Assembly: GCA_000169115.1 (NCBI GenBank)
Contig: AAVV01000007.1
Location: 124,001-188,000 of the forward strand
DNA: 64,000 nt
Direction: 5' to 3'
Origin: a marine gamma proteobacterium HTCC2080
GTDB taxonomy: Bacteria; Pseudomonadota; Gammaproteobacteria; Pseudomonadales; Halieaceae
How positions within the stretch are numbered: the stretch's first letter is position 1; the number at the start of each line of letters is the position of its first letter. A model generated the notes under the pieces. The model was not told where the DNA came from, made no database searches, and saw only the letters and a program-made list of their open reading frames with translations. Shown here piece by piece: positions 43,187 to 61,205 of this stretch. Both the position numbers and the translations under genes were made by a program.

Positions 43187-44236
43187 GTGATAAACAACGC
43201 AGTACGTCTCACGCAATACAGTCATGGCGCTGGGTGCGGTTGTAAAATAGCACCTGATGTTCTTGGTGAAATCCTTGCAGGCAGCCAGATCGATCCAGAT
43301 CAGTACCCTGATCTGTTGGTGGGCAACCACAGCCGTGATGATGCCGCCGCCGTCGATCTTGGAGATGGTCGGGCCATACTCACAACTACCGATTTTTTTA
43401 TGCCTATCGTTGACGATCCCTTCGACTTTGGCCGAGTTGCCGCAACAAATGCTATCAGTGACATCTATGCGATGGGGGGCCGGCCTTTGGCCGCCATCGC
43501 CATTCTTGGCTGGCCAATCGACAAATTGGCGCCCGGCATAGCCGCACGCGTCGTTGCGGGTGGGCGCAGCGTGTGCTCGAACTTGGGGTTTCCGCTGGCA
43601 GGGGGCCATAGCATCGATTGCCCAGAGCCCATTTTCGGACTGGCAGTGACCGGCGAAGTCACAATTAAACATCTCAAACGAAACAGCACAGGGTGCGCCG
43701 GAGACCAGCTGTACCTGACCAAGCCACTGGGCATCGGTGTTCTTACAACCGCAGAAAAACAGGGCAAACTTCAGGATAAGCATCAAGGCATAGCGACGCA
43801 GTTAATGTGTCAGCCCAACCAGATCGGGCAGCAACTTTCGGCAATACCCGGCGTCAATGCGATGACTGATGTCACGGGGTTCGGCTTGCTAGGGCACCTG
43901 CTAGAGTTTTGCGAGGGCGGACATCTCAGCGCAAGAATTGACAGGCCAACCGTACCACTGATGGAGGGGTTGGTAGACTATATCGCTCAAGGGTGCACCC
44001 CAGGGGGTACAGCTCGAAACTTTCACGCCTGTCGTAACAGCGCACGTGCGTTTTCCGCACATGATCAATCGATTTTTTGTGACCCCCAAACGAGTGGGGG
44101 CCTTCTGATAGCGGTTGCTCCCTATGCGACTGCCGAAGTCGAGAAACAGCTGGCTGCTGCTGGGCTACCGCACCAAAGCATTGGCGAATTAGAGCCTATG
44201 GTGGGAAATGAAAGTCAAATTAGGCTAACGGGCTAA
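43187..44236 (+). CDS. selD: Selenide, water dikinase (selenophosphate synthetase)
   Basis: A 349-residue enzyme making selenophosphate from selenide and ATP. The N-terminal catalytic motif is [13 protein letters not shown], with Cys17 and Lys20 (a Cys form, not selenocysteine). ATP-binding glycine motifs and Asp residues follow in [21 protein letters not shown] and [14 protein letters not shown]. It starts at GTG 43187. It is immediately followed by selU (7-nt gap), the classical pair for 2-selenouridine in tRNA. It also supplies selenophosphate for Sec-tRNA, relevant to the UGA-containing gene at 60.5-61.1 kb. Confidence 0.96.
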
Positions 44237-59459: not shown

Positions 59460-60548
59460 TTAAGGCTTTGTGAAGCTAGGAATCTCACAGAAAACATCAG
59501 ACTCTACTTTGATACTAACGGCAGAATTACCGTGAGCTCCAGCGCACCAAGAAGGCATAACCATTGAGTACAACCCGCTACCACCGGCCTGAATGATTAA
59601 TATCTGTTCCGGACTCCTAAAAGCCATCCTTCGGGTAGGATCCTCGCCCGTATTTGCTGGTATACCGCTGAATACAGGCATAAGTCGCTTGACCGTTTCA
59701 TCGGACAAAGAGCTACGCTCATAAAGCTCGCGAGCTATATCTTCACGAGTGAGGCCTGCCTTATGCAAGATCTCACTGTGCTCAGGATTCAACACAACCG
59801 TCGCAAAACCACCGGTTAAAGAGGCATTGTTGCTGGGTGGGTTAGCCAGCGCTAACGCCAGTAACTCAAGTAATACGGTGTAGCCCTTAGGATCATCGCC
59901 ATCTCCGGCATAAATTACCGAGTGTGGCGCCTCTGCACCTACAATAGTGACAACACTGTCTTCTGCATCAAAACCCAATGAAACGTGAAGAGGCGGAAAA
60001 GGGCTGCCCTCTTCGTCCTCGGCAAGACAATATGTAAACTTGCCCGGATGACCCAGCAGAGCCATGTCCGAACTACCGGGTCTGGCTTTTCCAATGTTGA
60101 TCATGGTCAGTCGCAACGCCCGTCCTATTGTGGCATTGGCTCGATGCCCTGGACCAAGAGCACCGGTACCAGAAACAATAGGGCCACAGTTATGGCGTGC
60201 AGGGCCGTTGACAATCATCAATGGGGCGGTGCAGTGGGTTGTTGCCTGCATTTCCGTAAGGTCAAAAGCCGGCTCGATGACAGCTTTAACTGCTGCTACG
60301 ACAACCGGCATATAGTCAGGCAGACACCCCGCCATAACCGCCGCCACAGCAACCTTTTCAATACTCGCCACCCCATGACCCGGCCCCATAGTGCCCAGCA
60401 CCATATCTCCGGCCTGGCCGGAGGCCAGCACCATGCGCGCAACCCTCTCAGCCGTGGGAATAACCACGGGTAGGCCGTCAGTACACCCTCGCTGATGCAA
60501 ATCCTCAAGCGCTTGTGCCTCATCAGCTGCAGAAAGCAAATCAGTCAC
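59460..60548 (-). CDS. Conserved hypothetical protein, partner of the UGSC selenoprotein
   Basis: A 362-residue protein starting at GTG 60548, overlapping the stop of the UGSC gene by 8 nt, so the two are translationally coupled. Conserved-looking glycine-rich blocks are TDGLPVVIPTAERV, MGPGHGVASIEKVAVAAVMAG, THCTAPLMIVNGPARHNCGPIVSG, ALGPGHRANATIGRALRL, and GHPGKFTYCLAEDEE. Several Cys/His residues could bind a metal or take part in redox chemistry. It has no signal peptide and no named domain that I can recognise. The tight coupling suggests the two proteins form one enzyme complex. It is not a known glycine reductase subunit by sequence pattern. Confidence 0.75.
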   Translation of the reverse strand: MTDLLSAADEAQALEDLHQRGCTDGLPVVIPTAERVARMVLASGQAGDMVLGTMGPGHGVASIEKVAVAAVMAGCLPDYMPVVVAAVKAVIEPAFDLTEMQATTHCTAPLMIVNGPARHNCGPIVSGTGALGPGHRANATIGRALRLTMINIGKARPGSSDMALLGHPGKFTYCLAEDEEGSPFPPLHVSLGFDAEDSVVTIVGAEAPHSVIYAGDGDDPKGYTVLLELLALALANPPSNNASLTGGFATVVLNPEHSEILHKAGLTREDIARELYERSSLSDETVKRLMPVFSGIPANTGEDPTRRMAFRSPEQILIIQAGGSGLYSMVMPSWCAGAHGNSAVSIKVESDVFCEIPSFTKP

Positions 60549-61077
60549 CGCCCCCCTCCAAAGCCTGAATAATCGTGGGCGCTACTGACTCTGCGATCTT
60601 ACGCATAGTCGTCGTCTCTGTTCCTGCCACAGGGTGAGGCAACTGAACACGGGGCACTGCTGGCATGCCCAAGGACTGAGCAACAAAGTCGCCCTGAGCC
60701 CAAAATTCTTCCGTCACCAATGCAACTGCTGGAATACCAAGGTTTGCAATATTAATTCCGTCACGCACGGTGCCGGTGGTGCAAGAGCCTCAATGTCCGT
60801 AGGCAGCAATGACGCCGGAACATTCTCCCGTAATTTCCTGCAAGAGCTTGTCCCCGGCAGGAATAGTGGCGTTACCTTTGTTGTACGCCCGCAAGGTAAT
60901 ACCAGGAAACAGTGCCTGAATAGCGTCACCCACAGCGTTTAAAAATTCAACGGAATCGGGAAACCCATTGGCCAATAAACCAATCGTCGTAGCGGCTTCT
61001 GGCTTGACGGCTAGAGACAGCTCATACGGTATTTCCTCAACGCCTATTGGTGCATCTGGATTGTGATAGTCAATCAT
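60541..61077 (-). CDS. UGSC-family selenoprotein (in-frame TGA read as selenocysteine)
   Basis: A single 178-residue gene from ATG 61077 (AAAAGGAG 5 nt upstream) to TGA 60541, interrupted only by TGA at 60790-60792. Codons on both sides form one continuous protein, and the TGA falls exactly at the U of the motif that names the family: AYGH-U-GSCTTGTVRDG (U96). Without recoding the upstream part would be a 95-residue fragment and the downstream half would lack a plausible start. The sequence after the motif, GIPAVALVTEEF, resembles the Sec region of glycine-reductase B-type proteins. It overlaps its partner gene by 8 nt. A weak hairpin (GCAC/GTGC, 60765-60782) follows the TGA as a SECIS candidate. 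Function is unknown; it is probably a redox enzyme. Confidence 0.9.
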
Positions 61078-61205
61078 AAAGACTCCTTTTAAGACTCCCA
61101 ATTTAACGTACAAGGAGGGGCTATGGCTATTAAGAAGTTCCCAATGAGACTCAACCTTGATTAAGTTGACATAGCCTGACGTAACGGCGGCGCGAAAGCA
61201 CTGCA

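Follow-up and report, generated by a model that had tools for sequence, protein, structure and literature searches.

A UGSC-family selenoprotein gene and its overlapping partner gene in the marine gammaproteobacterium HTCC2080: a probable relation to GrdB/PrdB

The window analysed in this work is a stretch of 64,000 nucleotides from the marine gammaproteobacterium HTCC2080 (GenBank assembly GCA_000169115.1, contig AAVV01000007.1, positions 124,001 to 188,000). Its reverse strand carries a UGSC-family selenoprotein gene at positions 60541-61077. The frame, which begins with the ATG at 61077 and ends with the TGA stop at 60543-60541, contains a single internal TGA (60790-60792, reverse strand, codon 96) in the context ...AAYGH-U-GSCTTG..., and translation confirmed the claim of the first-pass annotation that the frame is broken by this codon alone, at the U of the U-G-S-C motif. 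When the TGA is read as selenocysteine, a protein of 178 amino acids with Sec96 is obtained; 82 sense codons lie between the TGA and the stop of the gene, rather than the 81 counted earlier. A ribosome-binding-site-like sequence, AAAAGGAG (61083-61090, reverse strand), can be read 5' of the ATG. The overlap with the next gene, also noted earlier, amounts to the last 8 nt of the UGSC gene, which are shared with a gene starting at the GTG at 60548. This second gene (59460-60548, reverse strand), called the partner gene in the following, encodes 362 amino acids and belongs to no Pfam or NCBIfam family. A mechanical listing of open reading frames divides the UGSC frame at the TGA into two pieces, the second starting from the GTG at 60768, which is the treatment that had been expected of gene callers.

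The read-through protein matched the Pfam family PF24696 (UGSC) with 143.8 bits (E 7.4e-42; gathering cut-off 25 bits) over residues 23-174, i.e. on both sides of the TGA. This match, the presence of the selenium machinery in the host and the Sec or Cys residues of the relatives (see below) bear out the earlier assignment to the UGSC-family selenoproteins. With NF041046, the NCBIfam model for UGSC family (seleno)proteins, the window protein scored 107.5 bits, under the curated cut-off of 125. The same holds for the rest of its subfamily (HUGSCT-T/S-GTVRDG) as scanned: six further Sec members, so that all seven (7/7) lie in the range of 89.5-113.7 bits, and one Cys member (90.4 bits) stayed under the cut-off, which was passed by 3/3 scanned members of other UGSC subfamilies. 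Since UGSC selenoproteins have been in print since 2008, the window gene is only a new member of the family; what goes beyond family membership is the unit of two genes and the probable link with GrdB/PrdB.

Among 293 genomes of the host's order, 24 contained UGSC matches over the cut-off, with 34 copies altogether. In 33 of these copies there is a single in-frame TGA; the remaining copy (the Cys version of genome G052) has none. As the TGA occurs at the same codon in separate assemblies, a sequencing error at this position is excluded for practical purposes. Residue 96 of the homologues, whose comparison had been recommended in the first-pass annotation, was inspected in an alignment of 65 UGSC proteins and proved to be Sec in 59 of them and Cys in the remaining 6. 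This alignment comprised the window protein and proteins from 64 of 80 partner-centred loci (the best 80 of at least 566 relatives); L071, the loci with fusions and those lacking a nearby UGSC match of sufficient length were left out. The carriers of the Cys form are a gammaproteobacterium, Cryobacterium, Novosphingobium, two further Sphingomonadales and Natrialba. On a quick tree built without the position-96 column the Cys label needs four changes, of which at least two are forced by well-supported branches, and the shortest tree paths from the window protein lead to proteins of Halieaceae. In the 65 proteins position 96 (Sec counted as Cys) and Phe125 are invariant, and Gly97, Ser98, Cys99, Thr100 and Asp106 are kept in at least 90 per cent. 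Two relatives, L102 (9639) and L115 (998), have U-G-S-S, i.e. Ser replaces Cys99 and the second Cys of U-x-x-C is missing, which counts against the mechanism favoured below. The UGSC carriers include Halieaceae, Sphingomonas and Natrialba, which are aerobes. The host itself has a second UGSC gene with an in-frame TGA (C13:71819-72319, L016), which belongs to the DUGSCSSGSSLDS subfamily and has its own partner upstream; the gene downstream of it appeared by eye to encode a thiolase or KAS III.

The host genome (25 contigs, 99.4% complete) was searched for selA, selB and selC as the first-pass annotation had proposed, and all three were found in one run (C22:174122-177517), in which ARAGORN called a tRNA-SeC (tca). 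The gene for selenophosphate synthetase, selD, lies in the window itself (43205-44125, forward strand, corresponding to C19:167205-168125). Its product matched TIGR00476 with 411.8 bits (cut-off 125), and its frame of 351 amino acids is free of in-frame stops; it is about 16 kb from the UGSC operon and outside that operon. In the host's order selA was over the cut-off in 23/23 genomes with a TGA-bearing UGSC gene versus 38/293 genomes overall, and no selA was seen in G052 (75% complete), whose sole UGSC gene is the Cys version. In four genomes of one family (G044, G183, G204 and G224; loci L034, L035, L032 and L031) selA adjoins the UGSC gene, with 84-108 nt between the match ends, which suggests that the UGSC enzyme is a main client of the selenocysteine machinery there.

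A SECIS-like hairpin, CCG-G-CAC-(CGUGC)-GUG-A-CGG, is located at 60758-60776 (reverse strand), 14-32 nt 3' of the TGA. Its stem is nearly invariant in the window subfamily. Silent-site identity at codons +5 to +10 was 0.89-1.0 of comparisons versus 0.17-0.74 at the other codons counted, as determined in 23 rows from 20 codons before to 49 after the TGA; these rows include L048, L102, L115 and L028, the last of which is the same contig as L051. The alignment used for pairing consisted of 19 rows, 15 of them distinct, with L089 (AUGSC) added and with L048 (Ns) and L102 and L115 (HUGSS type, other hairpin) omitted. Compensatory changes in L060 and L089 preserve the stem, and 100% of the cells are paired in the 15 distinct rows, a result reached by 2/500 shuffles. 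With 15 distinct rows and two compensatory events, the evidence for the putative hairpin is modest. Nearly all of 44 relatives from other subfamilies show a stem that begins 18-19 nt 3' of the TGA, mostly with a loop of the GUG/GUA type. Of the cells in 42 distinct rows 93.2% were paired, versus 82.8% in shuffles; cells changed on both sides numbered 21 versus 5.4, and slid versions of these stems paired in 15-50%. Of the SECIS search suggested earlier, the part concerning a constrained and covarying hairpin thus stood; the plain folding energy of the window segment 3' of the TGA was no better than that of shuffles (z 0.00), and an Rfam scan gave no match at this segment. Taking the hairpin evidence together with the phylogeny, it is virtually certain that the TGA at 60792-60790 is decoded as selenocysteine. 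The reading that it is a true stop, giving a short protein and then a second one from GTG 60768, is in accord with the mechanical reading-frame listing and with the negative outcomes of the folding-energy comparison and the Rfam scan, but it has almost no chance of being correct, as the conserved PF24696 domain spans the codon, relatives have TGA or Cys there, silent-site conservation and covariation are seen 3' of it, and selA co-occurs with it.

Even at a threshold of E 10, neither Pfam nor NCBIfam yielded a match to the partner protein, and 63 members of the partner family gave scattered matches only, with E 0.018 or worse. When the 293 genomes of the host's order were searched with a partner profile, partners were found in the same 24 genomes as UGSC, with 33 copies versus 34 for UGSC, the odd UGSC copy being at a contig end. 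Partner relatives were also sought across 84,980 species, each represented by a single genome; at least 566 were detected and the best 80 loci were kept. In 73 of these 80 partner-centred loci a UGSC gene was present on the same strand within 1.6 kb, preceding the partner in 52 and following it in 21. The other seven loci comprise L067 and L081, with UGSC at 1.75-1.87 kb, L101, with UGSC at 6.5 kb, and L058, L080, L092 and L123, at which no UGSC was found (L058 is cut at a contig end). Because this sample was chosen by partner, UGSC-centred loci were also examined: a partner was present within the stretch covered in 26 of 27 (27 of the 34 copies), the exception being at a contig end. In L017 the partner is on the strand opposite to UGSC. 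Thirteen fused UGSC-partner frames occur in the 80 loci (7 plus 6 longer ones, one of the longer frames having Gln at the Sec position), and the natural fused chain L103 was predicted as one body with a pTM of 0.94. Partner rows with stops in range (L066, L102 and L124) or cut short were omitted from the partner alignments; in alignment A4, the input for structure prediction, the last residues of each UGSC row (about 8%) are misplaced. As UGSC and partner share all 24 of their genomes among the 293, the pair can be called obligate within this sample, and there is hardly any doubt that UGSC and its partner constitute an obligate two-subunit enzyme.

In GrdB a U-x-x-C motif follows a strand, and an H-P-x-G motif comes later. 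To compare UGSC with this family, the 23 genomes behind 24 of the loci were searched with TIGR01918 for GrdB-family sequences; matches were obtained in 17 of them, over the cut-off in 7. A first comparison by profile, with seven PrdB-like proteins, gave 46.8% only. With 20 GrdB-family sequences hhalign gave 94.1% (E 1.2e-7), aligning Sec with Sec and HPV with HPCG, and 93.6% without the badly trimmed row L146 (L146 was absent from the controls too, and L144 was unused). The full-length GrdB rows alone gave 93.5%, the short PrdB-like ones alone 68.2%, and the comparison with the UGSC motif masked 76.9% (E 2.1e-5). Among the controls, the reversed profile gave 0.9%, 38 column shuffles 0.4% or less, and an unrelated alpha/beta profile (GrdE-like) 9.3%. 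TIGR01918, in a search per genome, reached the UGSC protein L151 (E 1.7e-4, 20.4 bits), and TIGR01917 reached the UGSC protein L110 (E 4e-4, 19.4 bits), both far under the curated cut-offs. No curated GrdB or PrdB model of NCBIfam was listed for the window protein, and when the 65 UGSC members were run through a Pfam hmmscan with E values of up to 10 allowed, GRDB was absent from the families listed (25 of 36). A search for a PDB sequence close to GrdB for fold comparison found none, and the host genome gave no match to GRDB or to Gly_reductase (PF09338).

About 92 columns are shared between UGSC and GrdB/PrdB (TIGR01918, TIGR01917, TIGR04483, PF07355), with Sec, U-x-x-C, G-I-P and H-P in register. 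It counts against the relation that this stretch sits in a common fold class. On the strength of the profile comparisons, the Sec domain of UGSC is nevertheless very likely homologous to that of GrdB/PrdB, as a divergent relative. The two systems differ in size: GrdB has about 430-460 amino acids with a long N-terminal part, whereas UGSC has 178 and is without that part. They resemble each other in gene arrangement, as GrdB genes adjoin GrdE-like genes in several carrier genomes just as UGSC adjoins its partner. The partner occupies the place equivalent to that of GrdE/PrdA, but it is not detectably related to the GrdE-like Gly_reductase proteins or to the N-terminal part of GrdB: hhalign gave 0.1% and 0.3%, respectively. 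A separate group of proteins from Pseudomonadota (L128-L134, about 320 amino acids) has C-P-x-C-H in place of the Sec motif; the best match of L128 and L130 is PrdB, with 84.7 and 80.4 versus a cut-off of 300 bits.

In the AF2 model of the UGSC protein (pLDDT 95.4) strands and helices alternate, and Sec is located after the third strand, just before a helix. The predicted fold looks like a Rossmann/flavodoxin-like sandwich rather than the thioredoxin fold suggested in print; a 2026 review, in the excerpts available, groups UGSC with families of thioredoxin-like fold whose functions are largely uncharacterised (PMC13188914). The structural matches listed for the model were largely CheY-, flavodoxin- and Rossmann-like, and no thioredoxin row was among those listed, which by itself does not prove that the fold is a different one. 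These observations bear on an explanation in print since 2008, which would make UGSC a thiol/selenol oxidoreductase of the usual thioredoxin kind, its redox pair being U-x-x-C. The spacing of the motif agrees with it. The alternation of strands and helices, the position of Sec and the listed structural matches speak rather against it, nor would a general redox carrier be expected to need an obligate partner of 350 amino acids, and we regard this explanation as unlikely.

The genes around the UGSC loci were compared in 121 neighbour proteins (raw counts, no background set). TctC tricarboxylate receptors were the commonest family (12), and the others comprised class III CoA-transferases (4), MmgE/PrpD (4), NMT1/THI5-like proteins (4), fumarase-like proteins (3), TPP enzymes (3) and family-5 binding proteins (3). 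In a clustering of whole loci, CoA-transferase-like genes, named by eye, were present in 15/80. The acid-metabolism families among these neighbours point loosely to small organic acids as the substrates of the UGSC-partner enzyme. The genes around the UGSC-partner pair of the window itself encode an MFS transporter, a P450 and a histidine kinase; relatives do not have them consistently, and no substrate can be read from them.

The explanation which we favour, and consider reasonably likely as a whole, is that of a two-subunit selenoenzyme of reductive chemistry, composed of a Sec96 subunit related to GrdB/PrdB and a partner of its own family. Sec96 would be inserted at the UGA by means of the downstream hairpin and the selA/B/C/D machinery, and the partner would hold a small carboxylic acid against it. 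The selenolate of Sec96 would then displace a leaving group on carbon (C-N, C-O, C-S or C-halogen), Cys99 of U-x-x-C would open the Se-C adduct to form an Se-S bond, and a cellular dithiol would reset the enzyme. Reductive C-X cleavage by the pair is a tentative part of this scheme, and the pair might equally well prove to have another chemistry. For the known reductases, excerpts of PMC10298544 describe how a selenium-carbon bond is broken in an unusual way while a selenenylsulfide forms; the same excerpts state that bacterial selenoenzymes mostly serve anaerobic metabolism, which, given the aerobic UGSC carriers named above, counts against our explanation. A parallel in composition is FarB/FarE (PMC10838667, in excerpts), a GrdB-like selenoprotein with a partner without pyruvoyl-processing cysteines, for which Sec attack on carbon at the C-F bond of fluoroacetate has been proposed. 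FarB/FarE differ from the UGSC pair in being homologues of GrdB/GrdE themselves, and they serve anaerobic C-F cleavage in Synergistota (same excerpts).

The pair could also be an isomerase, racemase or lyase, in which Sec would act as a base or covalent nucleophile with no net reduction. In the Asp/Glu racemase superfamily Cys has such a role. That the model puts the Cys/Sec residue directly behind a strand, within a domain of Rossmann-like type, is compatible with this, as are the MmgE/PrpD, fumarase-like and enoyl-CoA hydratase genes among the neighbours and a weak match of one GrdB protein to glutamate racemase (E 0.01, residues 306-350). However, that match falls outside the Sec motif, the families and chains that were listed for UGSC include no racemase, and Se-S chemistry is indicated by the second, conserved Cys of U-x-x-C; an isomerase-type enzyme therefore seems improbable to us. 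Returning to the reductive two-subunit enzyme, a generalization that we offer with still more reserve than C-X cleavage itself is that UGSC and its partner might represent an unrecognised, widespread class of GrdB-like selenoenzymes without a pyruvoyl subunit, which would reductively break bonds between carbon and a heteroatom in small acids. Aerobic bacteria and, with the Cys form, a haloarchaeon would be among the carriers of this class, and its paralogues would act on different substrates.

UGSC proteins are among the most abundant marine selenoproteins; the statement of the first-pass annotation that the chemistry of the family is not established still applies in the open-access literature, as far as its excerpts go. 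In excerpts of the Global Ocean Sampling survey, UGSC-containing selenoproteins are represented by 255 Sec and 21 Cys sequences, and UGSC is found fused to 'Unknown_1', a conserved domain of unknown function (PMC2398784). Matched by description, Unknown_1 is probably the same domain as the window partner. Elsewhere UGSC accounts for 8.2% of marine selenoprotein genes (PMC9402790), further UGSC lists and distributions are given in PMC9312934, PMC5029168, PMC9402790 and PMC7539508, and UGSC-motif selenoproteins are reported from bacteria with a tRNA-Sec of anticodon CUA (PMC5330540), all as excerpted. In the excerpts of open-access literature on UGSC neither a relation to GrdB nor an obligate partner is stated; most subscription papers fall outside this scope. 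With an obligate partner and the link to GrdB/PrdB, the function of UGSC becomes a testable question, and the favoured explanation, if true, would extend selenium chemistry of the glycine reductase type into aerobic organisms. Because the window subfamily scores below the cut-off that NCBI sets for the name, and none of the libraries scanned has a family for the partner, annotation may well render the two genes in the window as fragments and hypothetical proteins.

A Chloroflexi contig (L108) carries four UGSC-type domains within 15 kb, namely a fusion of UGSC and partner in which Gln stands in for Sec (L108:5131-6852, CDQGVTQNC) and three other UGSC genes or domains. The Gln fusion is possibly a non-catalytic or altered copy. 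Together with several contigs of one Chloroflexi bin, the four domains suggest UGSC paralogues with different substrates. UGSC-partner genes also occur in two metagenome bins (L063, L105) whose titles, Klebsiella pneumoniae and Bordetella parapertussis, are probably wrong and were disregarded.
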